This document shows, in pieces, positions 828-42,307 of a stretch of DNA of 51,748 bases. The position numbers were made by a program, and so were the translations under genes. The notes under the pieces are model-generated. The model worked only from the letters and a program-made list of their open reading frames with translations. It did not search any database and was not told where the DNA came from. Origin of the DNA: Calditerrivibrio sp. Its GTDB lineage: Bacteria; Chrysiogenota; Deferribacteres; Deferribacterales; Calditerrivibrionaceae. The DNA is taken from contig JAOAHS010000042.1 in the NCBI GenBank assembly GCA_026415135.1, forward strand, positions 1-51,748, given 5' to 3'. Positions within the stretch are counted from its first letter, which is position 1. Each line of letters opens with the position of its first letter.

Positions 828-1838
828 TTGAAATTCATAGATACTGTAAAGATAATAGTAAAAGCTGGTGATGGTGGTGATGGCTGTGTAAGCTTTCGCC
901 GGGAAAAATTTGTCCCAAAAGGTGGACCAGATGGTGGGCATGGAGGAAGAGGTGGGCATGTTATCCTTGTAGGGGATCGATCAAAACATACATTACTTGA
1001 TTTGAATTATCAACATATCTATCGAGCTGAAAGGGGACAGCATGGTAGGGGTAATGACCAAAATGGTAGATCAGGAGAGGATCTTTTTATAAAAGTACCG
1101 CTTGGTACTGTCGTAAAAGACTTTGAAAAAGATGAGATTATTGGTGAAATACTTGAAGATGGTCAAGAGATCATAGTAGCAAAAGGTGGTAGAGGTGGAA
1201 GGGGGAATCTGGCTTTTGTAAGCCCCACACAGAGGGCACCGAGAATTGCAGAACCCGGTGAGCCCGGTGAAGAGAAAGCTCTGTTGCTTGAATTAAAGCT
1301 TATCGCAGATGTGGGGATAGTTGGATTTCCAAACGCTGGTAAGTCCACATTTATATCTGTTGTATCAGCGGCAAAACCTAAAATAGCTGACTACCCATTT
1401 ACCACTCTAACACCCAATCTGGGGGTAGTTAAAGGTGAATATGGTAGTTCTTTTGTTCTTGCTGATATGCCGGGCCTTATTGAAGGGGCACATCTGGGGC
1501 TTGGTTTGGGGATACAGTTTCTAAGACATATCGAAAGAACAAAGTTTATTTTACATTTTGTTGATGCTTCATCTGAAGAGTCAATGGTAGAAAACTACAA
1601 AAAAATTAGGAAGGAACTGGAGTCCTATTCTAAAGATCTCTCAGAAAAGTATGAAATCATCGTGGCAACTAAGATGGATGCTGTAAATATTGATAATCTA
1701 AAGGAATTTGAAGATTATATCAAAGGTAGAGATTTCTTCAAAATCTCATCTATCACAAAAACAGGGGTGGATGATCTGATAAAGTTCATAAGCGAAAAAC
1801 TGAAAGATCTTCAACAGCGTAGCTTAGACAACCAATAG
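828..1838 (+). CDS. obgE: Obg family GTPase (ribosome assembly)
   Basis: This is a 336-residue Obg/CgtA GTPase acting in 50S subunit maturation and stress control. The glycine-rich Obg fold fills residues 1-155 (KAGDGGDGCVSFRREKF near the start). The G domain follows, with P-loop GFPNAGKS near 166-173, G3 DMPG and G4 TKMD. The C-terminal OCT domain of some Obg proteins is absent. I choose the TTG at 828 because Obg proteins begin M-K-F-I-D and GGAG at 818-821 is correctly spaced. The longer GTG frame from 795 would lie inside the terminator hairpin. The 3' end overlaps the convergent gene at 1786-2556 by 53 bases. Confidence 0.93.
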   Translation: MKFIDTVKIIVKAGDGGDGCVSFRREKFVPKGGPDGGHGGRGGHVILVGDRSKHTLLDLNYQHIYRAERGQHGRGNDQNGRSGEDLFIKVPLGTVVKDFEKDEIIGEILEDGQEIIVAKGGRGGRGNLAFVSPTQRAPRIAEPGEPGEEKALLLELKLIADVGIVGFPNAGKSTFISVVSAAKPKIADYPFTTLTPNLGVVKGEYGSSFVLADMPGLIEGAHLGLGLGIQFLRHIERTKFILHFVDASSEESMVENYKKIRKELESYSKDLSEKYEIIVATKMDAVNIDNLKEFEDYIKGRDFFKISSITKTGVDDLIKFISEKLKDLQQRSLDNQ

Positions 1839-2556
1839 CACCATTGAATTGGGGGTTTTTTAGTACGTTGATATCTTTTGCCAGATGTTTTGAAAGAAAA
1901 TAAACGATCCCTTTTAGGGAGGCAACACCACCACTTACATAAATTTTGTGTTTGTTAAATCTTTTTACCTGTGGTATGAGGCGCCTTGCTATAGAGTCGT
2001 TTACTCCAGCTGCTATACTATCAAAAGCACACCCTTCGGCAATCTTACCTATGATCTCTGACTCGGCAAAAACGGAGCAGGTGGAGCTGAGTTTTACTGG
2101 ATTGTCGATATAAGCACCCAACTGTTCTACAGACATTTTTAGTATTGCCGCTGAAGACTCTAAAAACCTTCCAGAACTTGCGGCACACTTATCGTTCATT
2201 ATAAAGTCCTCTATGTAACCATCCCTAACAATTATTACCTTACTATCCTGCCCACCTACATCCAAAAGCACAAAGTCCTTTTCTTTGGTCTGTATCAAAG
2301 CACCTCTGTAGTGGGCTTTGATCTCGGAAATAACATCAGCGTTTTTAAAGTTTATAAGATTTCTACCATAACCTGTGGCACAAATCTTAACAGGAGATGA
2401 CGTCAAAAAAGAGAGGTCCAAAGATAGCTGATTATCAATCCTGATAACATACTTTTGATAAAAGGTTACTGTATCGATTAAATCGAATGAGATTTTATTA
2501 TCAGAGTAAAGAGCAATTTTTACAAACCTACTACCGAGATCTATACCTACGAACAT
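1786..2556 (-). CDS. HgdC/BadF-type ATPase, CoA-dehydratase activator-like iron-sulphur protein
   Basis: This 256-residue protein belongs to the BadF/BadG/BcrA/HgdC ATPase family. Members use ATP to drive a low-potential electron into a partner dehydratase or reductase. Visible marks are the actin-like phosphate loop GIDLGSRFVKIAL at the N-terminus, LLDVGGQDSKVI near 97-108, and two cysteines, C124 (NDKCAASSGRF) and C160 (SSTCSVFAESEI). In known activators the equivalent cysteines hold a [4Fe-4S] cluster at the dimer interface. It overlaps the upstream HgdB-like gene by 10 bases, so the two are translationally coupled. Its last 53 bases lie inside obgE on the other strand. Its physiological partner is probably the neighbour; the substrate is unknown. 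Confidence 0.85.
   Translation of the reverse strand: MFVGIDLGSRFVKIALYSDNKISFDLIDTVTFYQKYVIRIDNQLSLDLSFLTSSPVKICATGYGRNLINFKNADVISEIKAHYRGALIQTKEKDFVLLDVGGQDSKVIIVRDGYIEDFIMNDKCAASSGRFLESSAAILKMSVEQLGAYIDNPVKLSSTCSVFAESEIIGKIAEGCAFDSIAAGVNDSIARRLIPQVKRFNKHKIYVSGGVASLKGIVYFLSKHLAKDINVLKNPQFNGAIGCLSYAVEDLSVFRL
1830..1861 (+). terminator. Weak candidate terminator after obgE
   Basis: A 5-bp stem (CCAAT at 1832-1836, ATTGG at 1848-1852) with an 11-base loop is followed by GGG and a T-run. It spans the obgE stop codon and lies wholly inside the convergent HgdC-like gene, so its sequence is also constrained by that reading frame. The stem is short and may not be functional. Confidence 0.3.
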
Positions 2557-3539
2557 CTCTTCCCCTCAAGCATTTCGATAAAGGACTCTAATCTGATTTT
2601 TGTTCTGGCATCTAATCCATCGGGATCGTTGCCTTCGATGGTTATTACAGGTATTTTTACCTCTTTTTTGATTATGACATCTTGAATCTGTCTATAGCAA
2701 AAGGATTGGACATAGTGGATCAATCCATCGAGCTTTCTATTGAAGATCTCTTTTTTTATATCATTTAATCTGTGGTAGATATCGTAAGGGTAGGTGTATT
2801 CGATAAAGTTTTGGATATAATCATCACCCATAAAGGGCATGGCAAACTGTCTTTGTATTTCATTGAAGATTACGGAGACCCCCTTTGACTCTAAAAAATC
2901 GTATAGGTCTGTAAAGATAGGTGGAACACCGATAATACCGATTTTTATTTTGTGTATTATGGGAGTTCTTTTCTCCGCTTTTTTTAAAAAGGTATCCAGA
3001 TGTTTTTCAAATGTTATTGGGTCTGAGTTGAAATCTGTGGAGGAGACAAGCCATAGGTGGTTTTCAAATCCGGTTACATACCCATCGATGGTCATCTGGT
3101 CTAATCTCTTTAATTTTTCTCGAACAGGTTTTAGTTTTTTTGCAATTGCAAGGGCTTCGGTAAGATCCCCATTTAACGAGGCTGCTAAATGTTTTATTTG
3201 ATTTTCAAGAAAAGAATATTTGTCGGGGGCATCATAGGGATAAGCAAAGGTATGGACTTTGATCCCTTCTGATCGAAAGATCTCTATGAGGGCGTGGGTA
3301 TTGCTACAATCCCCTTCTGTGACGGCGATCACTTCGTCCACTTTTTTTTCCATTACCACAGCCAGAATCCCCTTAATCCAACTACAGGTGTTGCGTGGTA
3401 GACCATACTCTTCAGCAAATTCGATCTTTTTGTAAGGGGTTTTGTCTGTTATAAAAATATTGTTGAGATCTACTGGGATTTTTTTAGCTGAAAGGACAAT
3501 CTCTACAGGGATTGTAGTGGTAAAACCTACTTTTTTCAT
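2547..3539 (-). CDS. HgdB-like 2-hydroxyacyl-CoA dehydratase subunit / double-cubane type protein
   Basis: This 330-residue protein resembles the D-component (HgdB, PF06050) of 2-hydroxyacyl-CoA dehydratases. Three cysteines lie where the family binds a [4Fe-4S] cluster: C52 (RNTCSWIKG), C78 (EGDCSNTHA) and C281 (QSFCYRQIQ). A further C329 sits at the extreme C-terminus. No second (HgdA-like) subunit is encoded nearby, so it may be a stand-alone reductase like the double-cubane cluster proteins, or form a homodimer. The start codon overlaps the stop of the 97-aa gene by one base (TAATG). Function as a low-potential reductase with the downstream activator is inferred; the substrate cannot be read from sequence. 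Confidence 0.78.
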   Translation of the reverse strand: MKKVGFTTTIPVEIVLSAKKIPVDLNNIFITDKTPYKKIEFAEEYGLPRNTCSWIKGILAVVMEKKVDEVIAVTEGDCSNTHALIEIFRSEGIKVHTFAYPYDAPDKYSFLENQIKHLAASLNGDLTEALAIAKKLKPVREKLKRLDQMTIDGYVTGFENHLWLVSSTDFNSDPITFEKHLDTFLKKAEKRTPIIHKIKIGIIGVPPIFTDLYDFLESKGVSVIFNEIQRQFAMPFMGDDYIQNFIEYTYPYDIYHRLNDIKKEIFNRKLDGLIHYVQSFCYRQIQDVIIKKEVKIPVITIEGNDPDGLDARTKIRLESFIEMLEGKRCS

Positions 3540-3832
3540 TACAGGCTGTAATCTATGTACCTTCTGATCTCTCTGTGGAGCCCTTCCCGATTTTTAAAGA
3601 TGATCATATTTTTTTCAAAAAAAGAGTCTATCAATTCAAAGTCCACGATGTCTGCTTCCCTACCATCTTCTAAGGAAATGCGATAAACTTTTGTGACTTC
3701 ATTGCTTTTTGATACAGTACCTTTTAGGTGTTTACCTTTTCTAAGGAGTGTTATGAAAATTAAGTCGTCCTTAAGTTCAAAATCGATCTCTTCCCATCTC
3801 ATATTTTTAAATACAATCATCCATCTACTCAT
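3539..3832 (-). CDS. Hypothetical 97-aa protein linking sensor kinase and HgdB-like gene
   Basis: I do not recognise this protein. It is a small soluble protein with no signal peptide, membrane segment, cysteine or histidine cluster. It has alternating hydrophobic and charged residues in the first 75 positions, suggesting beta strands, and a basic, probably helical C-terminal end (REGLHREIRRYIDYS). Its ATG overlaps the kinase stop codon (ATGA at 3829-3832), and its stop overlaps the start of the HgdB-like gene. It is therefore made in step with both and is very likely a real gene. A role as adaptor or regulator of the system is only a guess from position. Confidence 0.75.
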   Translation of the reverse strand: MSRWMIVFKNMRWEEIDFELKDDLIFITLLRKGKHLKGTVSKSNEVTKVYRISLEDGREADIVDFELIDSFFEKNMIIFKNREGLHREIRRYIDYSL

Positions 3833-12127: not shown

Positions 12128-12526
12128 ATGGAGAGACGAAAATATAAACGTTATTCGGGAATACCGATTCGTGTTTTATTGAAAAATGAAAAAGATGGCC
12201 AGTTCCACAATGTTGATTTAATCAATATAAGTTTGGGAGGTATTTTGATTAGAACAAATGATAGGTTTATGCACATTTATGATCAGTATGTGCTGAAGAT
12301 TGAGATCCCTGTCGATACTGTTCATCCTCTAAAAAACCATGATAAGGATGTTATTTTTGCAAGGGGTATTGTGTGGAGGATTGAGGCTGATAGGGAAAAC
12401 TATAAAGAGGATGTGGCGATAAACTTTTTCTATGTGGCTTTGAGGTTCACGCAGATCGATGAGCATGACAGGATAGTTATTTCGGAATATCTCAGCAATT
12501 TTGAAGAGAATGTCCCTTATGAATAG
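12128..12526 (+). CDS. PilZ domain protein (c-di-GMP binding)
   Basis: This 132-residue protein is a single PilZ domain. The N-terminal RRKYKRY contains the R-x3-R part of the binding site, and NISLGGILI matches the (D/N)-x-S-x-x-G motif, so both c-di-GMP contact motifs are intact. It has no signal peptide or membrane segment and should act in the cytoplasm as a stand-alone receptor, for example for motility or surface behaviour. It is a single-gene unit between two minus-strand genes, with its own ribosome binding site AAGGAGG. The target protein cannot be told from the context. Confidence 0.87.
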   Translation: MERRKYKRYSGIPIRVLLKNEKDGQFHNVDLINISLGGILIRTNDRFMHIYDQYVLKIEIPVDTVHPLKNHDKDVIFARGIVWRIEADRENYKEDVAINFFYVALRFTQIDEHDRIVISEYLSNFEENVPYE

Positions 12527-17834: not shown

Positions 17835-17862
17835 TTGTCAAAAATGAAATATCTTTTATAAT
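17835..17862 (+). promoter_or_regulatory. Promoter opening the 29-kb gene block
   Basis: TTGTCA (17835-17840), a 16-base spacer and a perfect TATAAT (17857-17862) lie in the 56-68 base gap after aguB. Transcription would start near 17869, about 20 bases before ATG 17890. This is the clearest promoter ahead of the long run of plus-strand genes. Confidence 0.65.
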
Positions 17863-17889
17863 TATATTATCGAAACGATGGGGTTTTAT

Positions 17890-19425
17890 ATGAAAAGACT
17901 AGGTGAGATATTAATAGAACGAAAGATTTTAACCAAAGAGGATCTGGATCAGCTCCTGGCCAAACAGCAAATAACAAAGGAGAAGCTGGGTGATCTTGTT
18001 GTAAAAATGGGTTATCTTACCTCAGATCAGCTTTTAAGTATAATAGCAGAACAATATGGCCTTCAATACCTCAATATAAAGGAGATCGTGATACCCCAGT
18101 CTGTCCAAAAGGAATTTAACTTTGATGTTCTAAAAAACTACAGGATTGTTCCCCTCAAAATAGAGGATAAGAAAGCTTACGTGGGTATAAACAATGTGAA
18201 TATCTTAAAAGATCTGGATGAAATATCGTTTAATTTGGGGAAAACGGTTATACCAGTATTACTTTCTGAGACTACCGTGGATCGTATGCTGGATGATCTG
18301 GAAAAATTACCCTATGGGACAAAGGATTATCATTTTAAATCGTTGGAATTGATGATGCAGGGGGGAAAAGATTTTGATAATCTTATTATGACTATTATTA
18401 ATTTTGATAACAAAATAGAACGGATATTTTTTAAAGAGAACTCTTCACCTTTTATCAAAAAGTACAACTATGTGGAAAAGATACCTTATGAGAAATTTAC
18501 AAAAAACCATATCCTTAACATTATAAAAGAGGTTTGTGATGAATCGGATAGAAAAACACTTGTTGCCAATGGGTTTGTTAGCGTAAAAAGGCTAATAGAT
18601 TCCAAAAGATTTACGGTGAACTTTTATAAGGAGAAAAGCTCTTTTTTTATCCTCGTCATAAACCATTCATCTGTTATAACAGATATCTCCAGTTTTAATC
18701 TCTCTAAGGACATATACAAAAATCTCATTGAGCCAGTAAAAGGGATAATCTTTCTCATTGCACCTTTCGGTCATGGTAAATCGACAATGTTGAATGCGAT
18801 AATAGATTATTTTAATTCCACCAGAAATATTAATATGCTTTATGTTGTGGATAGGGTTTATGAGTCTATCAGAAATCATAAGTCTAACATAATACAGATT
18901 GAAAAAGAAAATATAAAGGGTAGAAAGGACTTCAACGACCTTTTGAACGATTTTGATCCAAATATCCTCTTTTTTGACAATTTGGATTCAGCGGAGACTC
19001 TAAATTATATATACAAATTTGTTGAGGCAGGAAGACCAGCCTATGTCTCAGTGGAGTCAAACAGTATCCCTTCAACATTAGAAAGTATATTGTATACAGA
19101 ACGGGAACAGGCTTATAAATACCACCTTAATAGGCTTGCAGACAATATAAATCTATTTGTGAATTTTAGGCTTATACCGGGCAAGAAAAGTCAGAACAAG
19201 TACTTTATCTATGAGTATTGTACTAACAACTTCAAATTGAAAAAAATCATACGGGATAATTCTTTTAATATCATAAATACCCAGATGAGGGGTACTGGTG
19301 AGTATCAGCCCTTTGAGGTGCAGATGGCTGATCTGTTTTTAAAAAATCTTATATCTTATGATGTGGCTGAAAGCTATGCCCTTGATGTAGAGTTGTTTAA
19401 GAGATTAGCTAAGATTAGTGGTTAG
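17890..19425 (+). CDS. Degenerate GspE/PilB/PilT-like ATPase with MshEN-type N-terminal domain
   Basis: The N-terminus (KRLGEILIERKILTKEDL, then KLGDLVVKMGYLTSDQL) has the two-fold repeat of GspE/MshE N-terminal domains, some of which bind c-di-GMP. The C-terminal part aligns by order with secretion/pilus ATPases, but key motifs are altered. The P-loop reads APFGHGKS (295-302, counted from ATG 17878). The Walker B region reads DPNILFFDNLDS (360-371), without the usual catalytic Glu. The His-box region (about 388-397) has no histidine, and the tetracysteine zinc site is missing. It may bind but not hydrolyse ATP efficiently. No other pilus or secretion gene is adjacent. I start at ATG 17890 because GGGG is spaced for it and the domain begins there. 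Confidence 0.72.
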   Translation: MKRLGEILIERKILTKEDLDQLLAKQQITKEKLGDLVVKMGYLTSDQLLSIIAEQYGLQYLNIKEIVIPQSVQKEFNFDVLKNYRIVPLKIEDKKAYVGINNVNILKDLDEISFNLGKTVIPVLLSETTVDRMLDDLEKLPYGTKDYHFKSLELMMQGGKDFDNLIMTIINFDNKIERIFFKENSSPFIKKYNYVEKIPYEKFTKNHILNIIKEVCDESDRKTLVANGFVSVKRLIDSKRFTVNFYKEKSSFFILVINHSSVITDISSFNLSKDIYKNLIEPVKGIIFLIAPFGHGKSTMLNAIIDYFNSTRNINMLYVVDRVYESIRNHKSNIIQIEKENIKGRKDFNDLLNDFDPNILFFDNLDSAETLNYIYKFVEAGRPAYVSVESNSIPSTLESILYTEREQAYKYHLNRLADNINLFVNFRLIPGKKSQNKYFIYEYCTNNFKLKKIIRDNSFNIINTQMRGTGEYQPFEVQMADLFLKNLISYDVAESYALDVELFKRLAKISG

Positions 19426-19428
19426 TAG

Positions 19429-21189
19429 ATGTCAGTAAGTAAATACTTCAAAGATAATTACTTACCTGCTTTAATTCAAAACTATACCTATAGGGAGAAT
19501 CAGGTTCAGTTCTCTGAGGATCTCTTTCGTTATCTGGAAGATTATAAAGATATTGTAGCAGAAGCACCTACTGGTTATGGGAAAACTATAGCTTATCTTG
19601 TTCCGATCTTTGAACTGGGTAGAAGAACTATCATTAGCACCAAATCAAAACAGCTTATGAATCAGATTTTACTGAAAGATATACCTATTATTAAGAAAAT
19701 TTTTAAAAATAAAGAATATAAAGTGGCTACACTATTAGGTAGGAGAAATTATTTCTGTCACTATAGATACTCGAAGTTTATTGTGCCATATTCAGATATT
19801 TATCCTGAAGTGGTGGAATGGGCAAACGGTATATTGGATAATAAAATAACAGAAGTTTATATGTTGAACTTTGGTGGGGATGTGTTGAATAAGATTACCG
19901 CTGATAGTTATCAATGTATTGGGGGCAAATGTCCTTATATTCAATCCTGTTCCTTTTATAATGCAAAAAATCTTGCCAATGAAGCGGATATTGTAATAAC
20001 CAATCACCATATGATATTAGCTGATATCGCTATGAGACTGAAATTTGGTAATAGTTTTAATTTTGAGGTTGCTGAGCATATCATTTTTGATGAGGCTCAT
20101 TCTGTTGCTGATATTTTCCCCCTTTATTTGGGAGAAGAGTTAAATTTTCGTTCCTTACTGAGCTTTGCAAGGGAGAATCGAAAGTTCATAGGTGATAATT
20201 TGATTAAAAAAATTGAACAAGAATACATGGCTTTGTGTATAAAAGCACAAAATATCAATAGGAAAAAACTGGATGACGATTTTCAAGAAAAATGTGTTAA
20301 TTTTGTATCCGAAATGTGGGATAAATTTCATAATTTAGTTCCAGATGATGAGTACTCTGTCATGGAAAGATACTGGGAAACGATGAAAAAGATCAAAGAT
20401 ACAAATGGTGTGAAGGTCGTTGAGGGAAATGGTGATTTTTTCAATTTGAGAAATGTTCCCATTTATGCAGGTAAGCAGTTTGTTGATGGTGTAAAGGAAG
20501 CTGCTAATAGTATGCTTTTGGTAAGTGCTACAATTACCTTTGATAATTCTTTTGATTACATAAAGAAGGAGTTGGGTTTTGATGATACGGTGATTACCTT
20601 GAAGTTGGTACCTGAAAATAATCTTTTCTCTCAAGGGAAAGCGTATATTCATGATGAGTATCTTGTTAGTTTGGAGGATAAGAAAAAGTTTTATAAAGAT
20701 TTTTTTTCAAAAAATAAGGGTGCTGCCATTGTTATATTCAATAATACAAGTCATATGCAGGAGATTGGTAAGTTTATAAAGGATTCCTTTAAAGATAAAA
20801 AGGTGTATTATCAAACGGATGATTTGCAGAGCTTAAATATTACACAAGATACCATCATATTGGGTTGTTCCATCATCAGAGAGGGGATTGATTTTGGTAA
20901 TAAAGGTATAGAATATGTTATCATCGATAAGCTCCCATTTGAAAATATTTCAGATGTTTATGTAGAGGCAAAATTGGGTCACTACAAAAAAGAATATAAA
21001 GATCCATTTAAAGGGTATTATCTTCCAAGAGCGGTTATATTTTTCAAACAGGCTGTGGGTCGTCTGATAAGAAATGAAAAAGATAGAGGGTATTGGATTA
21101 TTCTGGATAGCAGAATAAGAACAGAACATTATGGTAAGTACTTTTTGGACGTACTTAAGGGTGCTGGTAAAGTTGGAAAATTTTGGTAA
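19429..21189 (+). CDS. DinG/XPD-family iron-sulphur DNA helicase
   Basis: This 586-residue superfamily 2 helicase has Walker A EAPTGYGKT (45-53), an iron-sulphur domain with cysteines C110, C163, C168 and C174, DEAH box at 221-224, and the C-terminal motif QAVGRLIRNEKDRG. It is expected to unwind DNA (or R-loops) with 5'-3' polarity in repair. The four cysteines have spacing typical of XPD/DinG [4Fe-4S] helicases. The gene starts three bases after the preceding stop, with no clear ribosome binding site, so translation is probably coupled. DinG is the closest name; an exact orthologue call needs a tree. Confidence 0.85.
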   Translation: MSVSKYFKDNYLPALIQNYTYRENQVQFSEDLFRYLEDYKDIVAEAPTGYGKTIAYLVPIFELGRRTIISTKSKQLMNQILLKDIPIIKKIFKNKEYKVATLLGRRNYFCHYRYSKFIVPYSDIYPEVVEWANGILDNKITEVYMLNFGGDVLNKITADSYQCIGGKCPYIQSCSFYNAKNLANEADIVITNHHMILADIAMRLKFGNSFNFEVAEHIIFDEAHSVADIFPLYLGEELNFRSLLSFARENRKFIGDNLIKKIEQEYMALCIKAQNINRKKLDDDFQEKCVNFVSEMWDKFHNLVPDDEYSVMERYWETMKKIKDTNGVKVVEGNGDFFNLRNVPIYAGKQFVDGVKEAANSMLLVSATITFDNSFDYIKKELGFDDTVITLKLVPENNLFSQGKAYIHDEYLVSLEDKKKFYKDFFSKNKGAAIVIFNNTSHMQEIGKFIKDSFKDKKVYYQTDDLQSLNITQDTIILGCSIIREGIDFGNKGIEYVIIDKLPFENISDVYVEAKLGHYKKEYKDPFKGYYLPRAVIFFKQAVGRLIRNEKDRGYWIILDSRIRTEHYGKYFLDVLKGAGKVGKFW

Positions 21190-21206: not shown

Positions 21207-22571
21207 ATGAGAAAGGTATCTTTGGATTACAATTTTGCCATGAGAGAGCATATTACAGATGGTATTACCAGCGAAGAACTCAATGAACACCTCAACCTGG
21301 CTAACGAAGGCCTCATCAAATTGAGTCAAATGGTGGAAAAGGGGGAGGTAGGATTCCCAAAACTCGTGGAATCTGATATCTCAGATCTCTTAAATTTTGT
21401 TAAAGAGGGGGCTGGTAGGTATGATGATGTTATTGTTATAGGTATAGGCGGTTCTTCGTTGGGGTTTGAGGCGATAACTAATGGGCTTTTACCTTATGGC
21501 TATAACTGCCTTTCAAAGGATAAAAGGGGGTTTTTCCCTAGGTTCTGGGTCATGGACAATGTGGACTCTTTTAAGGTATATTGGATTTTAAAGCATTGTG
21601 ATCCAGATAGAACTTTGGCGATTGTCATAAGCAAGTCTGGCAGTACTGTGGAAACAGCTGCAAACTTTTTGATAGTTTATAAATGGTTTAATGAACATGC
21701 TGTGGATCTGAAAGATCATCTTGTGGCTATCACAGATCCTGTCAAAGGTGATCTTAGAAAGATTGTGGGGATGCTTAATATCCTTGCATTTACTGTTCCA
21801 CCAAATGTAGGTGGTAGATATTCTGTTTTATCTGCTGTTGGTTTGTTGCCTGCTGCCCTTGTGGGGGTGGATATTAAAAGAATATTAGAGGGGGCTGCCT
21901 ATTTTATCCATAACGGTAAGAACATATATCTCACTATGACAGCTATTTACAATATCTATCTTACTAGAGGCAAGAATATAAATGTGATTATGCCATATTC
22001 GTCAAGGCTGAAAAGTTTTTCTGAGTGGTTTAACCAACTTTGGGGAGAAAGCCTCGGTAAGAGGTATGATTTAAGTGGCAGGGAGGTTTATTTCGGTTCC
22101 ACACCTGTTGGTGCTGTAGGGACAATAGATCAACATTCCCAATTGCAGCTTTATAAAGAAGGGCCTTTTGATAAATTTATAACTTTTTTAGAACTAAGTA
22201 AGCATGATTTTAATCTCGATTTAGATGGTAGTTGGTATGAAAACTATAATTACTTAGATGGAGTTGATCTCAATAGATTGCTCAATACAGAGCTGTATGC
22301 TACAGAGGCAGCGCTAAAGAAAGCATCAAGGGCTTCTATGAAGGTTGTGGTGGACTATCTCGATGAGTTTAGTATGGGCTACCTTTTTATGCTTTATCAG
22401 TATGTGGTGGCCACTCTCGGTATAATAAACAATATCAATCCATTTGATCAGCCAGGTGTTGAAGAGGGTAAGGATTATGCTTATGGTATTTTGAACAGGA
22501 AAGGGTATGATGAAAAACGGAAAGAATTTGAAAGCTTCAACCGAAGAGATAGAGATTTTATTATTGAATGA
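21207..22571 (+). CDS. pgi: Glucose-6-phosphate isomerase
   Basis: Pgi (454 residues, the short bacterial form) interconverts glucose 6-phosphate and fructose 6-phosphate. The sequence shows VIGIGGSSLGFEAI, the phosphate-binding SKSGSTVETAANFL, GGRYSVLSAVGLLPAAL and FDQPGVEEGK near the C-terminus. AGGAGG precedes the ATG. The product fructose 6-phosphate feeds the GlmM/hexosamine branch encoded further down the same block. The end overlaps the tilS start by about 60 bases. Confidence 0.95.
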   Translation: MRKVSLDYNFAMREHITDGITSEELNEHLNLANEGLIKLSQMVEKGEVGFPKLVESDISDLLNFVKEGAGRYDDVIVIGIGGSSLGFEAITNGLLPYGYNCLSKDKRGFFPRFWVMDNVDSFKVYWILKHCDPDRTLAIVISKSGSTVETAANFLIVYKWFNEHAVDLKDHLVAITDPVKGDLRKIVGMLNILAFTVPPNVGGRYSVLSAVGLLPAALVGVDIKRILEGAAYFIHNGKNIYLTMTAIYNIYLTRGKNINVIMPYSSRLKSFSEWFNQLWGESLGKRYDLSGREVYFGSTPVGAVGTIDQHSQLQLYKEGPFDKFITFLELSKHDFNLDLDGSWYENYNYLDGVDLNRLLNTELYATEAALKKASRASMKVVVDYLDEFSMGYLFMLYQYVVATLGIINNINPFDQPGVEEGKDYAYGILNRKGYDEKRKEFESFNRRDRDFIIE

Positions 22572-23784
22572 GTGTTTTAAGAAGATACCATGTGATTGCA
22601 AAAGACTTTTAGTGGCTTTTTCAGGAGGGAGAGACTCTGTGGCTCTCCTGCATTTTTTAAATAGGCATAGGGACAAACTGAAGATCATTTTAATGGCATG
22701 TCATGTTAATCATGGCTTAAGGGGAGAACTGGGTGATAGGGATGAGAGGTTTTGTGAAGATTTTTGTAGTAGATACGGTATTGAGTTTGTTTCAAAGAGG
22801 ATAGATGTTCCTACTTTTCTAAAGAATAATAAAACATCTGTGGAGGATGCGGCAAGGCGATTGCGCTATCAGTCGCTTTGTGAGGTATTGGAGAAGTTCA
22901 ATATGGGTTATATCGCCACTGCCCACCATCTGGATGATATGTTGGAGACCTTTTTTGTTAAGCTGTTTACAGGTTGTGCCATCTATAACCTAAAAGGTTT
23001 TAATGATACTAAAGTAATAAGACCTTTTTTGGGTGTGGGTAGGGATTTGATCGAAAAATATCTGAAGAAATATGATCTTGAATATGTGGATGATGAGACA
23101 AATTTTTCCGAGGATTACGTTAGAAACTGGGTTAGGCATAGGATATTACCGGAGATAAGAAGCTATAACAAAGGCTTTTTGCAAAATATCTTCTCCATTC
23201 AGGAACAATCTGAGGATCTGAAGATATTCTTAGAGGGGTACTTTTCTTCGATTGAAATTGTTTGGGGTGATAAGCTCTGTTATACTAGTAAGCAGGATTT
23301 AGTAAAAAGAACAAGGCTTGAAAAAAGGTATATCATAGGAAAGATGATGGAGCGCTTTTTTAGGGTGGAGAAACAGCATATCGATAATGCAATAGATCTT
23401 CTTGATGGGCAATCAAAGCGTATTAATCTACCAGATCGTTTTTTGTTTGAGGTGTCCTTTGAGAAGGTGATGGTATTCCACAGGGAATTGATAGAAGATT
23501 ATAATTTTTTTAAAAAAGAAACAGTTGATATTGTTTTTTTACCAAAATTGTGTAAATATATAAAATTTAGCGGTGATCTGAAGCAAAGCAGCCTTATTGT
23601 TAGAAACAGAAGAACTGGAGATAGGGTTGCGGGAAAGAAATTAAAGGATATATTGATAGATAAAAAAATCGATCTGTTTGACAGGGATAGGTTAGTTGTT
23701 GTGGAAAAGGAAGGTAATATTATCTGGGTTGAGTCTGTATATGAAGGGAATGAAGAGATAAAGATTTATAGCATGGAGGATTGA
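22510..23784 (+). CDS. tilS: tRNA(Ile)-lysidine synthase
   Basis: TilS (about 424 residues) attaches lysine to C34 of tRNA-Ile with CAU anticodon, changing its identity and codon reading. The PP-loop motif AFSGGRDSVALLHF is near the N-terminus, followed by the conserved ACHVNHGLRG and ATAHHLDDMLETFFVKL. The C-terminal domain (GDRVAGKKLKDILIDKKI) is typical. Two tandem ATGs (22507, 22510) follow AAGGG; the start overlaps pgi, and a TTG near 22565 is an alternative. It lies before hpt and ftsH, an arrangement also known from Firmicutes. Confidence 0.92.
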   Translation: MKNGKNLKASTEEIEILLLNECFKKIPCDCKRLLVAFSGGRDSVALLHFLNRHRDKLKIILMACHVNHGLRGELGDRDERFCEDFCSRYGIEFVSKRIDVPTFLKNNKTSVEDAARRLRYQSLCEVLEKFNMGYIATAHHLDDMLETFFVKLFTGCAIYNLKGFNDTKVIRPFLGVGRDLIEKYLKKYDLEYVDDETNFSEDYVRNWVRHRILPEIRSYNKGFLQNIFSIQEQSEDLKIFLEGYFSSIEIVWGDKLCYTSKQDLVKRTRLEKRYIIGKMMERFFRVEKQHIDNAIDLLDGQSKRINLPDRFLFEVSFEKVMVFHRELIEDYNFFKKETVDIVFLPKLCKYIKFSGDLKQSSLIVRNRRTGDRVAGKKLKDILIDKKIDLFDRDRLVVVEKEGNIIWVESVYEGNEEIKIYSMED

Positions 23785-24317
23785 TGGAAAAACACAATCT
23801 GGAAGTTTTAATAAGTTACAATGAGATTATCGATAGGGTTAAGCTCATTGCAGAAACAATCACCAATGACTTTAAAGGTGAAGAGCTTTTGGTTGTGGGC
23901 GTGTTAAAGGGTGCTTGGATATTTATGGCTGATCTGGTTAAGTATATAGATCTACCTATGGAGATTAGTTTTGTTTCTGTCTCAAGCTATTCTGGCGCCA
24001 GAACCACTTCAAGCGGTATTGTAAGGCTGATATGTGATGTTGATAGACCAGTGGAGAAAAAAAATGTGATACTAGTAGAGGATATAATTGATACAGGCCT
24101 TACTATAAACTATTTGAGAAAACTTTTTTCTGTGAGAAATCCTTCTTGTCTTAAGATATGTGCACTCCTTGATAAACCTTCACGGAGACTTGCAGATATA
24201 AATCCTGACTACTGCGGTTTTACAATACCCGATGAGTTTGTGGTGGGGTATGGTTTGGATTACAACGGTTATTATAGGAACCTTAGAGATATATCGGTCT
24301 TAAAGCTAAATACTTAG
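23784..24317 (+). CDS. hpt: Hypoxanthine phosphoribosyltransferase
   Basis: This 177-residue enzyme salvages hypoxanthine/guanine with PRPP. The PRPP-binding motif [17 protein letters not shown] is clear, and the N-terminal [16 protein letters not shown] matches the family. The ATG at 23784 overlaps the tilS stop (TGATG), with GGAGG upstream, so expression is coupled with tilS. The TTG at 23781 is less likely as start. Confidence 0.94.
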
Positions 24318-24325
24318 GGGGTATG

Positions 24326-26137
24326 ATGAGAGACAATTTTTATAAAAATATTACGTTATGGTTTGTGATTGCCCTTATAATGGTGGTGATGTTTAATGCT
24401 TTTAACACAGGTCAAGGGATCAAAAAAAAGATCTCATATACAGACTTTATAGAGCAGGTAAAGCAGGATAATGTAAAGAGTGTGGTTATAAAAGAGAAAT
24501 TTATCACTGGTGAGTTTAAGAAAAACAATGAGCAGTTTGAAACCTATGCTCCTGATGATCCATCCCTTGTTTCTCTGTTAAATGAACACAAAGTGAAGAT
24601 TTATGCCAAACCACCTGATCAAAATCCATGGTATATGCAGGTGCTCATCTCATGGTTGCCTATGATACTGCTAATAGCAGTCTGGATCTTCTTTATGAGA
24701 CAGATGCAGGGAGGGGGTAAAGCGTTTAGTTTTGGTAAAAGTAGGGCTCGATTACTCACACCTGACCAGAGAAAGGTTACCTTTCAGGATGTTGCTGGTT
24801 GTGATGAGGCAAAGGAGGAGCTTGTGGAGATTATAGAGTTCTTAAAAGATCCCCACAAGTTTCAACGTTTGGGGGGTAAGATCCCTAAGGGGGTTTTATT
24901 AGTTGGACCTCCAGGGACTGGAAAAACATTACTTGCAAAGGCGGTAGCTGGTGAAGCTGGTGTTCCATTTTTTAGTATCAGTGGTTCCGATTTTGTTGAA
25001 ATGTTTGTGGGTGTTGGTGCTTCAAGGGTTAGGGACCTTTTTGATCAGGGTAAGAAAAATGCTCCATGTATTATTTTCATAGACGAAATAGATGCAGTCG
25101 GTAGGCACAGGGGTGCTGGCCTAGGTGGTGGCCATGATGAGAGGGAGCAGACATTGAATCAATTACTGGTGGAGATGGATGGTTTTGAATCTACTGAAGG
25201 TGTTATTTTGATAGCGGCTACCAATAGACCTGATGTTTTAGATCCAGCTCTTTTAAGGCCAGGTAGGTTTGATAGACAAGTGGTGGTTCCAAGACCTGAT
25301 GTTAAAGGTAGATTAGAGATCTTAAAGGTCCATGCTTCTAAGGTGCCGCTGGGGAATGATGTGGATTTAGAGGTTATTGCCAAATCCACTCCAGGTTTTG
25401 CTGGTGCAGAACTGGCCAACCTTGTCAATGAAGCGGCTCTTTTGGCTGCAAGAAAGAATAAAGAGAAAGTCAATATGGATGATTTTGAAGAGGCTAAGGA
25501 TAAGGTGATAATGGGTAAGGAGAGGCGTTCTGTGGCTATTTCTGAAGAAGAGAAGAAGGTTACAGCCTATCATGAAGCGGGGCATGCAATAGTGGCGAGG
25601 TTTACCCCATTTTCTGATCCAGTTCACAAGGTGAGTATCATTCCAAGGGGTATGGCTCTTGGTGTTACCCAGCAGTTACCAAAGGATGATAAATATATTT
25701 ATACTAAAGAGTACCTCAATGCCCGTTTATCTGTTTTAATGGGTGGTAGAGCTGCAGAAGAGATTGTGTTTGGTAGAATAAGTACAGGTGCAGGAAACGA
25801 TATAGAAAGGGCTACAGATATAGCAAGAAATATGGTCTGCTCTTGGGGCATGAGTGAAGTTTTAGGTCCGTTAGCTTTTGGTAAAAAGGATGAGGCTATC
25901 TTTTTAGGCAAGGAGTTGGCTACACATAAAAATTATAGTGAAAAAACAGCAGAGATCATAGATGATGAGATAAGAAAAATTGTTTTAAGCGCTTATATGC
26001 ATGCAAAGGACACCTTGTCAAACAATATAAAGTTATTACATTCAATGGCTGAGCTGTTGTTAGAAAAGGAAACCATAGAGGGTAAGGATATAGATGAACT
26101 GATAGATAAGGTTAATGGTGCATCTCAGATATCTTGA
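24326..26137 (+). CDS. ftsH: ATP-dependent zinc metalloprotease FtsH
   Basis: FtsH (about 603 residues) is the membrane AAA+ protease that degrades membrane and regulatory proteins, including the LPS-synthesis enzyme LpxC in some bacteria. Two membrane segments (about 8-25 and 108-127) flank a small periplasmic domain. The AAA module has [19 protein letters not shown] and [19 protein letters not shown]. The protease zinc motif is HEAGH. Tandem ATGs at 24323/24326 follow GGGGG, with 24326 better spaced. Its end overlaps folP. Confidence 0.96.
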
Positions 26138-27329
26138 TATGTTTTTAGAGGTTATAGATTCTGATAAAGACAGATTGGTTTATGAATGTGGCAAGATTGG
26201 GGCTCATCCTTATTCCTTTAGAGCTACTGATAGGGGTATTCCTTTGAATATCAAGATAAAAGGTATGAAGCCAGCTGCGGCTAATATTGTTAAACAGGAA
26301 GCTATTGCATCTGGAATAGACGCTGTGGTGCATAGAGGAGCTGTGGATTGTTCGGTTGATATGACGGATGTACTTATCTGTGGAGATATAAGGGGAATTA
26401 GGATCTTATCGGAAAGGCTTGATCTCCAGCCTTTTGGGTTAAAAGAGGTGGCAGATAGACTTAGAGGATTCTTAGCAGATAAAGGTGAGAGGGCTTTTCA
26501 GTGTCGTGATAGATTGTTGAATCTGAAAAAAAAACAGATGATGGCTATTGTGAATGTTACCCCTGACTCTTTTAGTGATGGTGGAAGGTTTCAGAATCTT
26601 GAGTATTTGGAAAACCATTTGATAAAGCTGAGGAGTTTTGGGGTAGAAGTGGTTGATATCGGTGGTGAATCCACTAGACCTGGTGCAGAAAGTGTTCCGG
26701 CTGAGGAGGAGTTAAGGCGCATAACACCTGCTTTAGAGATGGCTGTAAGTATGGGTTTTATTGTTTCTGTGGATACTTACAAATCTGAAGTGGCAAAAAA
26801 AGCCCTTGAAATGGGTGCTCATATTATAAACGATATTAGCGGATTGAGGTTTGATAAAGAGATGGCAAAGGTTTGTGGGGCATTTGGAGCAGGTGTAGTA
26901 CTGATGCATATAAAGGGTACTCCAAAAACTATGCAGAACAACCCCCAATACGATAACCTCTTGGAGGAGGTTAAAAGGTATCTCCACGATGGTATAGAGA
27001 TAGCATTGAATAGTGGAATAGATATCAAGAATATAATGATAGATCCAGGTTTTGGGTTTGGTAAAAGTTTGGAGGATAACTATAGGATACTCAAATACCT
27101 AAGGGAGTTTAGAGGCTTGGGTGTACCAGTGCTTGTGGGGATATCGAGAAAATCTATGATAGGAAATGTTCTCGGCAAGGATGTATCCCAAAGATTATTA
27201 GGAACAAAAGTGGCGGAAACAATAGCCCTTCTCAATGGGGCTGATGTAGTAAGGAGTCATGATCTGGAGGAAACTCTGGATATGCTCAAGCTCGTTAATT
27301 TTTATTCGGAAGTAGGGTTTAGATGTTAG
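26115..27329 (+). CDS. folP: Dihydropteroate synthase with about 140-residue N-terminal extension
   Basis: The core (about 140-404) is a full DHPS that joins p-aminobenzoate and dihydropterin pyrophosphate in folate synthesis. It has [27 protein letters not shown] and the C-terminal GISRKSMIG. The first 140 residues are extra compared with the usual 270-290-residue enzyme. They read as a folded domain ([37 protein letters not shown]), not a targeting sequence. I recall similar extensions in some thermophile DHPS proteins, but its role is unknown to me. The ATG overlaps the ftsH end by 23 bases with AAGG upstream. Confidence 0.9.
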
Positions 27330-28108
27330 AGGTTTTTAGATCGATTACCATCTTTGATGTGGTGGATATTGCAATAATTGCCTTTTTGATCTACAGAGTC
27401 CTTTTGCTAATAAAGGGGACAATCGCCCTAAGGATGACGCTGGGGGTTATAATTATACTTATTTTTTCATCATTTTCTACACTTTTTGGTTTTAAAGCTA
27501 CAAGTTGGGTATTGAGCAACTTGACTGGTTATCTTTTTCTTTCTATCATTATACTTTTTCAGCCTGAGATAAGAAGGGCTTTGGCAATCATAGGGGATAC
27601 AAAAGTCTTTAATAAAAACAATAGTCTAAATCTTTTTATTATAGATGAGATTGTAAAGGCTGTAACAGTGTTAGCCAATAAGCAGATAGGAGCCTTGATA
27701 GTAATCCAAAGGGAAATCGATCTGTTACCTTATATTCAGGTGGGTACAACGCTAAATTCTGATCTTAATAAGGATATTCTTATAAGTATATTTATCCCCC
27801 ATTCCCCTTTGCACGATGGTGCTGTGATAGTAATTAATGGGAAAATTACTTATGCAGGGACAATCTTACCTCTTACAAAAAGGGTTGATCTGGATAAGAA
27901 GTTTGGTACTAGACATAGGGCAGCAATGGGTATTACTGAAGAGACGGACGCTGTTTGTATTGTAGTTAGCGAAGAAAGGGGGACCATTACCGTTTCGTAT
28001 AGAGGGAATTTCACATCTGAACTTGACTCAGATACCTTAAGGGAGACGTTGCATAATATATTTAAAATTGATTCCATCAAAGAGGTCCATCATGATGCTG
28101 AGCAATAA
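27323..28108 (+). CDS. cdaA: Diadenylate cyclase (c-di-AMP synthase), CdaA type
   Basis: CdaA (261 residues) is a membrane enzyme making c-di-AMP from two ATP. Three hydrophobic segments (about 8-30, 36-55 and 62-80) precede the DAC domain with the catalytic DGA at 165-167 (HSPLHDGAVIV) and GTRHRAAMG near 195-203. It overlaps folP by seven bases and the cdaR gene by 17. cdaA-cdaR-glmM is the classic Firmicutes order, where c-di-AMP links potassium/osmotic balance to peptidoglycan precursor supply. Confidence 0.95.
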   Translation: MLEVFRSITIFDVVDIAIIAFLIYRVLLLIKGTIALRMTLGVIIILIFSSFSTLFGFKATSWVLSNLTGYLFLSIIILFQPEIRRALAIIGDTKVFNKNNSLNLFIIDEIVKAVTVLANKQIGALIVIQREIDLLPYIQVGTTLNSDLNKDILISIFIPHSPLHDGAVIVINGKITYAGTILPLTKRVDLDKKFGTRHRAAMGITEETDAVCIVVSEERGTITVSYRGNFTSELDSDTLRETLHNIFKIDSIKEVHHDAEQ

Positions 28109-28994
28109 TTTGTTAAAATTGATCAGCATATTATTGGCCATTATAGTGTGGTTTATTGTGGCTACATCAGAACAGCAAGAGACAAGCTTTTATGTGCCAG
28201 TTAAATTTAAAAATGAGATGGAAGGGTTAAAAGCTTTTACCGATACAAACCTCGTTTCTGTTCTTGTTAAAGGGCCCAAGATATCTATGAAATCTTTTAC
28301 ATTTAATGATATAAAGATCGAAATTGATCTTTCTGGGTTTCAACATGGGGAGTACCTGTATAGAATAAAACCATCAGATATTATATTGCCATCTGGGATA
28401 AGTCTGATAAGAGTAGAACCACAGGATGTAAGAATAACCATCGATAAGGTTGGTAAGAAACAGGTTAAGGTTGTGCCAAGTTTTGTTGGTGAATTAAAAG
28501 ATGGGTATAAGATCGTTTCTGTAAATATTAACCCCCAAACAGTTACAATCTTCGGTACTAACAAGAAAATCAGACTTTTGGAAAATGTTGAAACACTACC
28601 TATAAACCTGTCAGATGCAAGTAGATCCTTCAAACAAAAGATAGGGATAAAGGTAACTGATGTGATTTCAGATGCAAAACCCCAAGAAGTGGAAGTGGAA
28701 GTTAAGATAGCTGAAAATATAATAGAAAAGACATTTTTTAACATCCCTGTATTGCTGGAAAGACCATGGGGTGGTTTGAGGTTTAGGGTTTTATCAAAGG
28801 ACAGGGTAGATATTACAGTCAAAGGTAGAAGCGATAAGATAATTAGTTTGGATAATCTGTCTATTAAGGCTAATACTACAGGGATCACTCAAAAGGGTAT
28901 TTACAATGTTCCTCTAAAGGTGTTAAATCTTCCCGGTGATGTGGAATTGTTACAAGTGGAACCAAAGAGTATAAAGATAGAGGTAACACAATGA
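28092..28994 (+). CDS. cdaR: YbbR-domain protein, CdaA regulator-like
   Basis: This 300-residue protein has one N-terminal membrane anchor (LLKLISILLAIIVWFIVATS) and several YbbR repeats facing the periplasm. Examples are FYVPVKFKNEMEGL, VKVVPSFVGELKDGYKIVSV and FFNIPVLLERPWGGLRF. In Firmicutes the orthologue CdaR binds and modulates CdaA. I choose ATG 28092 with AGAGGT upstream; the open frame from TTG 28068 adds eight unlikely residues. It lies between cdaA and glmM with overlaps on both sides. Confidence 0.88.
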   Translation: MMLSNNLLKLISILLAIIVWFIVATSEQQETSFYVPVKFKNEMEGLKAFTDTNLVSVLVKGPKISMKSFTFNDIKIEIDLSGFQHGEYLYRIKPSDIILPSGISLIRVEPQDVRITIDKVGKKQVKVVPSFVGELKDGYKIVSVNINPQTVTIFGTNKKIRLLENVETLPINLSDASRSFKQKIGIKVTDVISDAKPQEVEVEVKIAENIIEKTFFNIPVLLERPWGGLRFRVLSKDRVDITVKGRSDKIISLDNLSIKANTTGITQKGIYNVPLKVLNLPGDVELLQVEPKSIKIEVTQ

Positions 28995-30343
28995 GAAAGT
29001 ATTTTGGAACAGATGGTGTTAGGGGAAAGGCTAATTTATACCCTATGACACCAGACTTTGCACTCAAGCTTGGTCAGGCTGCGGCAAAAGTTTTTAGAAA
29101 TGGCCATAAAAAACATAGGATAGTTATTGGTAAGGATACAAGGGTTTCTTCTTATATGTTTGAATATGCCATAGCCTCTGGGCTTTGTTCAATGGGTATG
29201 GATGTTGTACTTGTGGGTGTTTTGCCAACTCCTGCTATATCGTTTATAACAAGAAGTCTCCGGGCGGATGCAGGTATAGTTATCTCAGCATCTCATAACC
29301 CTTACTACGACAACGGGATTAAGTTTTTTTCCAGTGATGGGTACAAGCTGCCGGACGAGTTAGAACTTCAGATTGAGAAGATTATAGATGACAATATGAT
29401 AGAACTTGAACCCATCATAGGTAGGGTAACAAGAATTGAGACTGCTATTGGAAGGTATGTGGAGTTTGCCAAAAGCTCCTTTGATAAGAACTATGATCTA
29501 AGTGGTCTAAAGATAGTAGTGGATTGTGCTAATGGGGCAACGTATAAGGTTGCTCCGATGGCTTTTGCTGAACTTGGTGCTGATATTGTGATCATAAATG
29601 ACAAACCGAATGGATATAACATAAATGATAACTGTGGAGCTGTTTATCCTGAAGAGCTTGCTAAAAAGGTGATTGAGGTTGGAGCAGATGTTGGTGTATC
29701 CTTTGATGGGGATGGGGATAGAGCTATCTTTGTAGATGAAAATGGTTCTATTGTTGATGGGGATTATGTGTTGGGCATTTGTGGTAGATTCATGAAGGAG
29801 AGGGGGCTATTAAAAAATAACACGCTTGTAGCTACTGTGATGAGTAATCTGGGTTTCGAGAGGTCTTTAAATAAGATAGGTATTTATGTAGAACGCTGTG
29901 ATGTGGGAGATAGATATGTTATAGAAAAGATGAGATATCTGGATCTGAATCTCGGAGGAGAGCAGTCTGGGCATGTTATCTTTAGCGATTATAATACTAC
30001 TGGGGATGGTTTAATTACAGCCCTTCAGCTTTTCAAGGTGATGGTTTTGTCTGGGAAAAGGTTGAGTGAATTGCAGGAGTTTATATCTACGTATCCCCAA
30101 GTGCTCAAGAACGTTTCTGTGAATAAAAAGATACCGATCAAAGATCTTCCCAAGACAACCCACCTCATAAAGGAGTTTTCTGACCAACTTGGACAGGAGG
30201 GTAGAATCTTTGTAAGGTATTCTGGGACAGAAAATAAATTAAGGGTTATGGTGGAGGGTCAGGACTATAGTAAAATAGATTATATAGCAAACTCTATTTC
30301 GGCTACTGCTGTAAAAGAAATAAACGGTTGGAGTATGGAATGA
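28991..30343 (+). CDS. glmM: Phosphoglucosamine mutase
   Basis: GlmM (450 residues) converts glucosamine 6-phosphate to glucosamine 1-phosphate for UDP-GlcNAc, the precursor of both peptidoglycan and lipid A. Signatures are YFGTDGVRG at the start, catalytic S101 in ISASHNPYYDNG, the metal-binding DGDGDRAIFVD, and GEQSGHVIF. It overlaps cdaR by four bases (ATGA), and in the CdaA system GlmM is known to interact with and inhibit the cyclase. Confidence 0.96.
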   Translation: MRKYFGTDGVRGKANLYPMTPDFALKLGQAAAKVFRNGHKKHRIVIGKDTRVSSYMFEYAIASGLCSMGMDVVLVGVLPTPAISFITRSLRADAGIVISASHNPYYDNGIKFFSSDGYKLPDELELQIEKIIDDNMIELEPIIGRVTRIETAIGRYVEFAKSSFDKNYDLSGLKIVVDCANGATYKVAPMAFAELGADIVIINDKPNGYNINDNCGAVYPEELAKKVIEVGADVGVSFDGDGDRAIFVDENGSIVDGDYVLGICGRFMKERGLLKNNTLVATVMSNLGFERSLNKIGIYVERCDVGDRYVIEKMRYLDLNLGGEQSGHVIFSDYNTTGDGLITALQLFKVMVLSGKRLSELQEFISTYPQVLKNVSVNKKIPIKDLPKTTHLIKEFSDQLGQEGRIFVRYSGTENKLRVMVEGQDYSKIDYIANSISATAVKEINGWSME

Positions 30344-39616: not shown

Positions 39617-40078
39617 ATGGAAAATCTTTTTGTACAACATGACAGAGTGCTAATTCTAAAAGGTATAAAAGACAAAGAACAATTGATAAATGAATTGGTC
39701 TTTCATTGTATAAAGATAGGGATTTTAGATGATTCTAAAAAGGCTGTTGAAGGTATATTAAAAAGGGAAGCGTTGGGTAGTACAGGTATTGGCGATGGGG
39801 TAGCCATACCCCACGCCAAGCTACAATCTGTAAATGGGGTAAATGTTGTTTTTGCTTTTTTACCTGATGGAGTGGACTTTGATTCTCTGGATTCCAAACC
39901 GGTTAGATATGTTTTTCTTATTTTTAGTAATGAAAAGGAGACAGCTTTACATCTTAAAACCCTTGCATCGATTGCAAAACTGATTAAGAACACCGATTTT
40001 ACATCCAAAATTGATGAGCAGTCCACTGTAAGGCAGATTGAAGAGATATTGATCAAACTATGGAGCAGCATAGTGTGA
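39617..40078 (+). CDS. ptsN: PTS EIIA-Ntr family protein
   Basis: This 153-residue EIIA of the fructose/nitrogen type carries the phospho-acceptor His at 66 (GDGVAIPHAKLQSV). In proteobacteria EIIA-Ntr receives phosphate from a nitrogen-PTS and regulates potassium uptake and other targets; it does not transport sugar. The only phosphoryl donors in the window are the HPr and Enzyme I encoded 4-5 kb downstream. No EI-Ntr or NPr is present here. Confidence 0.93.
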   Translation: MENLFVQHDRVLILKGIKDKEQLINELVFHCIKIGILDDSKKAVEGILKREALGSTGIGDGVAIPHAKLQSVNGVNVVFAFLPDGVDFDSLDSKPVRYVFLIFSNEKETALHLKTLASIAKLIKNTDFTSKIDEQSTVRQIEEILIKLWSSIV

Positions 40079-41906: not shown

Positions 41907-41908
41907 TG

Positions 41909-42307
41909 ATGATTGCTGTTGTGTTGCTCACTCATAGTAGCTTAGGACTCGAACTGTTGAAAACATCAGAAATGATAATAGGCAAACAGGATATGGTAGA
42001 GGTACTATCCATACATAGTGGGACCACCTTAAGTAGTCTTGTGGAACGATTAGATATACTTGTAGAAAAATACAAGCACACAGGTTTGATAATAGTTACT
42101 GACATGTTTGGCGGTAGTCCATCAAACATCGCTATGGCTTATCTTGTTCACGAAAATGTGGAGGTGATCACTGGGGTTAATCTCCCCATGCTTATAAAGA
42201 TCTTTTCAGATAGAAAACATTTGGAAACAGCCCAAGAAGTATGCAAAGCAGCTGCTCAAACCGCCAAAGAAAGCATTATCATTGCAGGGGATATAATTAG
42301 AAAATGA
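41909..42307 (+). CDS. PTS EIIA component, mannose family
   Basis: This 132-residue EIIA-Man-type domain has the phospho-His at position 9 (VVLLTHSSLGLELL) and the conserved DMFGGSPSNIA. It would accept phosphate from HPr and pass it to the EIIB encoded next. I start at ATG 41909, which follows GTG 41906 and AAAGGGG. It is a separate polypeptide and not fused to EIIB, as in several Gram-negative reduced PTS clusters. Confidence 0.93.
   Translation: MIAVVLLTHSSLGLELLKTSEMIIGKQDMVEVLSIHSGTTLSSLVERLDILVEKYKHTGLIIVTDMFGGSPSNIAMAYLVHENVEVITGVNLPMLIKIFSDRKHLETAQEVCKAAAQTAKESIIIAGDIIRK

Follow-up and report, generated by a model that had tools for sequence, protein, structure and literature searches.

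In a 51,748-nucleotide stretch of Calditerrivibrio sp. DNA (the window herein, meaning the whole of that stretch), we found a gene whose product we lean toward reading as a degenerate, selectively maintained member of an MshEN-PilT family that serves as a c-di-GMP-reading pseudo-motor on the machinery of a type IV pilus or of type II secretion. By its domain scores, profile alignment, and AlphaFold2 model, the 511-aa protein is an MshEN domain fused without a break to a body of PilT/PilU type, as opposed to a GspE. Its role is probably to regulate in response to a signal and not to drive movement.

The intact open frame was called at 17878-19425 on the plus strand (515 aa). Because the orthologues begin MKKL, we prefer the start at 17890, which places the 511-aa pseudo-ATPase gene at 17890..19425 on the plus strand, as judged from the ORF, Pfam and NCBIfam models, orthologue starts, and the AlphaFold2 model. 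Just 5′ of the gene lies a promoter-like TTGTCA-16-TATAAT (17835..17862, plus strand) that agrees with the consensus at 11 of 12 positions and ranks at the top of the 23 such sites of the region; the site is a consensus match only, and the count of 23 is at the level of shuffled sequence (mean 22.0). A scan of the window with Rfam at gathering thresholds gave no match to a riboswitch or other known RNA.

Residues 1-140 (17890..18309, plus strand) make up the MshEN domain, which was recognized by Pfam MshEN, by the NCBIfam c-di-GMP motif model NF053729, and by a structural match to 5htl and 8pfa. The Pfam score (PF05157, 46.2 bits against a cut-off of 23.1) and the NF053729 score (57.7 against 38) both exceed the curated cut-offs, so the N-terminal MshEN-type sensor that an earlier sequence-only reading had proposed is retained. 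Comparison of the structure of MshE with c-di-GMP to the AlphaFold2 model gave Z 11.8. The available portion of PMC11731258 describes an MshEN consensus of two motifs, each of 24 residues and set five residues apart, (R/K/L)LGxx[LVI][LVI]xxG[LVI][LVI]xxxxLxxxLxxQ. Against this extended consensus, motif I (aa 3-26, 17896..17967, plus strand) matches at 10 of 11 key positions and motif II (aa 32-55, 17983..18054, plus strand), which begins five residues after motif I, at 9 of 11, giving 19/22 combined. The deviations are Lys for Gly in motif I and Tyr and Ile in motif II, and they might weaken c-di-GMP binding. By the same consensus, 18-21 of the 22 key positions are kept in the 11 full-length orthologues versus 16-19 in the 24 intact fusions described below. 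Every member of the pseudo-ATPase clade (11/11) has Arg or Lys as the first residue of each motif, and most intact fusions have Phe, Thr, or His as the first residue of motif II.

Following the sensor, a PilT-type N-terminal (N2D/PAS-like) domain was located at about aa 160-262 (18367..18675, plus strand) by alignments with Aquifex PilT and PilU. A profile built from the 11 orthologues aligned end-to-end with Aquifex PilT (E about 1e-40), which occupied profile positions 160-504, and the alignment with PilB was poorer. The AlphaFold2 model (pLDDT 83.5, pTM 0.53, 4 sequences) contains the PilT fold that we looked for, N2D plus the RecA-like C-terminal domain. It matched PilU 9n32_A over model residues 161-509 (Z 28.2, 345 residues, rmsd 9.2), PilT4 (Z 27.3), and the Aquifex PilT C-terminal domain 2eyu (Z 26.8, 242 residues, rmsd 2.9); we read the rmsd of 9.2 as two domains that the model may set at different angles. 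The protein thus shares with PilT/PilU (TIGR01420) the fold of residues 160-510 or so (Z about 25-28) and the end-to-end profile alignment, but it differs in its extra MshEN domain, which PilT and PilU are not known to carry, in its lost catalytic residues, and in its NCBIfam pilT_fam score, which lies far below the cut-off (94.5 versus 319.1 bits; two orthologues scored 124.2 and 117.5). Pfam T2SSE was marginal (24.6 versus 24.9). The structure matches the expected PilT/PilU family, and not the different P-loop family that the sequence-only reading had named as evidence against itself. Of the GspE/PilT-like fold proposed there, the PilT/PilU part stood on fold and profile, and the GspE part did not, with type_II_gspE at 24.8 versus 630.25; type_IV_pilB was also below cut-off (64.9 versus 675.65). 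The zinc cysteines said to be missing are absent, but since the body is PilT/PilU-like and the zinc-cysteine module is known only from GspE/PilB-type proteins, their absence means little.

Catalytic motifs were counted over 11 full-length orthologues and 24 intact fusions, with L147, L160, and L174 left out. In the P-loop APFGHGKS (aa 291-298, 18760..18783, plus strand, nucleotides read), the orthologues keep HGK in 11/11, with His and Lys present in each, have lost the first Gly in all 11, and keep the Ser/Thr in eight. The Walker B remnant FFDNLDS (aa 361-367, 18970..18990, plus strand, nucleotides read) is without the catalytic Glu, which is lost from all 11 orthologues and replaced by Asn (four), Asp (five), Lys (one), or Ser (one); the Arg two residues past this position is likewise found in 0/11. 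Both histidines are gone from the HIS-box remnant EAGRPAYVSVESN (aa 379-391, 19024..19062, plus strand), at each position in 11/11. The column of the second one (aa 389, 19052-19054) holds Glu or Asp in 11/11 orthologues versus His in 22/24 intact fusions, a conserved and unexplained replacement. At the Asp box, Glu remains in 3/11 and Asp in 4/11. All three PilTs of the same genome keep the catalytic Walker-B Glu and the HIS-box histidines. For Pseudomonas PilT, the text of PMC6858323 available to us reports that E204A and H229A each abolish twitching; it also describes H230 of PilT as adjacent to E204. Since the Walker-B Glu and both HIS-box His are absent from 11/11 orthologues, some of them in finished genomes, these losses are due neither to chance nor to sequencing error, and the proposal that orthologues would share them held. 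Residual hydrolysis is conceivable in five of the 11 because Asp fills the Walker-B Glu position there. The earlier description of eroded motifs is borne out for APFGHGKS, FFDNLD without Glu, and the HIS-box; its inclusion of the His of GHGK is not, because catalytically complete relatives share GHGK, which makes this His a mark of the family and the P-loop less damaged than its letters first suggest. The 11/11 catalytic losses and the MshEN scores above cut-off bear out the earlier suggestion of a pseudo-ATPase that has kept its MshEN sensor.

These complete relatives came from a profile search of 384 genomes, in which the best three candidates per genome were scored and at least two full-length matches lay outside the phylum. 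MshEN-PilT proteins were found in 6/8 genomes of one other phylum and, among the full-length matches listed, in 22/297 genomes of a second; most are about 510-570 aa long. Judged from their sequences, the catalytically complete MshEN-PilT fusions of these two phyla (L139, L140, L148-L152, L161-L173, L175-L177, and L179, nearly all with GHGK) are new here. They share with the pseudo-ATPase the domain order, in which the PilT body comes immediately after MshEN, the length, and the P-loop His of GxxGHGK[ST], with HGK in 23/24; that His precedes GK in 11/11 of our clade and in 0/61 other T2SSE proteins read from Deferribacterota. They differ in the catalytic set: Asp-box Glu, Walker-B Glu, and the first and second HIS-box His are present in 24/24, 24/24, 24/24, and 22/24 versus 3/11, 0/11, 0/11, and 0/11 in the pseudo-ATPase clade. 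One intact fusion sits inside a type II secretion cluster (gspC, gspD, gspE, a TPR gene, and the fusion, with gspF on the opposite strand) and in another case a response regulator separates the fusion from a nearby PilT gene; in a Pfam check of ten proteins near these two fusions, the first had no match. Across 16 regions no neighbor was conserved between groups of fusions, and the remaining regions gave no link to pili or secretion, a result that is weak for L187, L189, and L195, where picking the longest ORFs failed. The intact fusions suggest, at the level of sequence, that c-di-GMP may control retraction-type motors.

Conservation is inverted between the two groups. When pairs at 25-45% overall identity were compared (44 in the clade, 123 among the fusions), the ATPase core averaged an identity of 0.31 in the clade versus 0.56 in the fusions, and MshEN averaged 0.40 versus 0.32, so that the MshEN half is best kept in the clade and the ATPase core in the intact fusions.

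Of 50 genomes from the phylum, 12 have an orthologue that matches the pseudo-ATPase profile at E ≤ 1e-40; these 12 belong to four families (f1 4/4, f2 3/3, f7 3/3, f8 2/2), and none was detected at that threshold in f3, f4, f5, f6, f9, or f10. The 12 include G022, whose gene is split over two contigs and is outside the 11 full-length rows. Members of f4 and f5 have pilus ATPases and no pseudo-ATPase. A pattern scan of named genomes returned four loci, all in Calditerrivibrio or Deferribacteraceae MAGs, and says little on other phyla because its two peptide patterns are narrow. In a tree of four block proteins (G002 and G003 left out; 18 ftsH, 17 pgi, 18 hpt, and 15 tilS rows beforehand), a modestly supported branch (67/84) sets the holders apart, a distribution that fits a single gain.

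The next gene in the window is a YoaA/DinG-type helicase (19429..21189, plus strand; NCBIfam and synteny), which belongs to a conserved block, and downstream of it is the run pgi-tilS-hpt-ftsH-folP-cdaA-ybbR-glmM (21207..30343, plus strand), conserved with or without the pseudo-ATPase. Within this run cdaA was identified by Pfam; the others we take to be pgi, tilS, hpt, ftsH, folP, ybbR, and glmM from their sequences. In the 10 orthologue flanks read, the next gene was the helicase in eight and pgi in two (f8), and tilS, hpt, and ftsH come next wherever the contig continues. The placement noted from the window, in a housekeeping block without pilus genes, recurs in the orthologue flanks. The block is present without the pseudo-ATPase gene in members of f3, f5, and f6, and f8 keeps the gene without the adjacent helicase, so gene and block are independent; in f4 the contig stops ahead of the expected site, and the f10 locus does not have the gene order of the block. 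We do not think that the helicase is a functional partner of the pseudo-ATPase. A stand-alone protein at 12128-12526, which the sequence-only reading had pointed out as PilZ, was confirmed as such by Pfam, but the suggested link to the pseudo-ATPase was not borne out, as the PilZ gene was not seen beside orthologues in the flanks read. Elsewhere in the window, a BcrA/BadF-type ATPase and an HGD-D-like protein have as neighbor a 97-aa protein that matches no Pfam family (1786-3832). Consecutive phosphotransferase-system genes, one of them for an EII-Sor component, occupy 39617-46130, where PtsN, HPr kinase, RapZ, and enzyme I are presumably also encoded.

The same genome encodes six other secretion/pilus ATPases, all normal (three PilB/GspE-type and three PilT-type), which agrees with the expectation of true PilB/PilT-type ATPases elsewhere, together with two platform proteins and 17 GGDEF domains. 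At G000:C24:35692-37543 of this genome, an MshEN open frame adjoins a normal PilT-type ATPase, and similar arrangements were seen in G001 and G009.

Under the pseudo-motor reading, the role of an ATP-driven motor would have been lost, with the c-di-GMP receptor, the PilT scaffold, and the phosphate-binding HGK kept. c-di-GMP would most likely be bound through the MshEN four-helix bundle, and nucleotide may bind without being hydrolyzed. The body, shaped like PilT and probably ring-forming, would bind to the platform in the inner membrane (PilC/GspF) or else to a true PilT, so that c-di-GMP would govern whether the pilus or secretion pseudopilus engages or retracts. A precedent for function without catalysis is the PilT of Vibrio cholerae, which when Walker-dead still supports PilU-driven retraction according to the part of PMC6762196 at hand. 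From what is accessible of PMC11656802, c-di-GMP at the N-terminal domain is needed for the proper function of some PilB-type motors. MshE and PilB share with our protein this N-terminal receptor domain (same partial source), but both work as active assembly motors and have a body of PilB type, and the pseudo-ATPase is PilT-type and catalytically degenerate. FimX, described in the available text of PMC11656802 as a degenerate GGDEF/EAL regulator of PilB, is likewise a degenerate enzyme that reads c-di-GMP at a type IV pilus; the likeness is one of analogy only, as FimX is an unrelated protein in which the cyclase/phosphodiesterase is degenerate, whereas here it would be the motor itself. The true motors, platform proteins, and GGDEF domains of the genome speak for a pilus regulator, as do the two intact fusions near type II secretion or PilT genes. 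Counting against one are the position of the gene in a housekeeping block, the f4 and f5 members that have pilus ATPases but no such gene, and the fact that most intact fusions are not beside pilus genes. More specifically, and as a tentative suggestion, the protein could be a c-di-GMP-operated clutch that brakes or engages a true PilT/PilB on the platform, or else a rewired enzyme whose catalytic carboxylate has moved from Walker B to the HIS-box position.

Taken by itself, such rewiring into an active ATPase, with the acidic residue at the second HIS-box position as a relocated catalytic carboxylate and general base, strikes us as improbable. It would account for that column being acidic in 11/11 orthologues and His in 22/24 fusions and for the P-loop HGK kept in 11/11, and PilT H230 is adjacent to E204 in the available text of PMC6858323; however, the Asp box and conserved Arg residues are lost too, the P-loop Ser/Thr is lost in 3/11, and conservation no longer peaks in the ATPase core. 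Repurposing away from pili is less doubtful, if still unlikely in our estimation: the protein would be a cytoplasmic receptor of c-di-GMP or another nucleotide for an operon-linked process (helicase, FtsH, CdaA), with the PilT body as scaffold. The helicase or pgi follows in 10/10 flanks (eight and two), the c-di-AMP cyclase CdaA is encoded downstream, and the intact fusions are mostly away from recognized pilus genes, but the block without the gene in f3, f5, and f6 and the f8 gene without its adjacent helicase speak against an operon-linked role.

We think it likely, from architecture and P-loop as much as from the tree, that the pseudo-ATPase clade descends from the GHGK fusion subfamily. 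A different origin, whether from PilB or through an independent fusion of MshEN to PilT within Deferribacterota, with a convergent P-loop His, would be surprising. The stem of the clade is very long (about 2.5 changes per site), its join with PilB was not rejected (p-AU 0.3), and an MshEN protein and a PilT-type ATPase are neighbors as two frames in the same genomes; yet the clade joins the fusions versus PilT/PilB at 100/100 in the best trees of two row sets, and the domain order and the P-loop His (11/11 and 23/24, versus 0/61) are shared. The first of these trees (without L105, the duplicates L147/L160, and all but six PilB/GspE rows) counts L178 in this join, and with L178 placed outside, clade and fusions together were rejected (p 0.024); the second also leaves out L178, L179, L177, L164, L141, L142, and two of the six PilB/GspE rows. 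That the gene is a decaying copy without function is hardly credible, even though the clade sits on far longer branches than the true PilTs from the same genomes do. The frame is open in 11/11 full-length copies across four families, HGK is kept in 11/11, and the MshEN motifs are retained. In three close pairs dN/dS was 0.10, 0.07, and 0.086, and since these values are low and close to those of the adjacent helicase (0.09, 0.05, and 0.08), the gene is under purifying selection; the L045/L046 pair was computed on open frames with an N-terminal extension, a further pair (L047/L048) gave 0.28 at dS 1.3, and L042/L044 was saturated. Simple decay of this copy, which the sequence-only reading had allowed for should complete orthologues exist, is thus disfavored by dN/dS of 0.07-0.10 and by the shared motifs: complete relatives do exist in other phyla, but within the phylum 11/11 share the losses.

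PilT-family ATPases are treated as motors. To our knowledge, no natural PilT-family clade has been demonstrated to function in the absence of the canonical catalytic residues, and a clutch or a rewired enzyme would be the first. The portions of the open-access literature searched showed no degenerate PilT, no MshEN-PilT fusion, and no name for the intact MshEN-PilT fusion subfamily. If the pseudo-motor reading is true, the reading of c-di-GMP and the burning of ATP, which are difficult to tease apart in PilB and MshE, would here be separated, and the clade would be a natural experiment on the effect of MshEN alone on a pilus machine. With a catalytically complete MshEN-PilT subfamily elsewhere, c-di-GMP control may reach the retraction side of these machines besides the assembly side.
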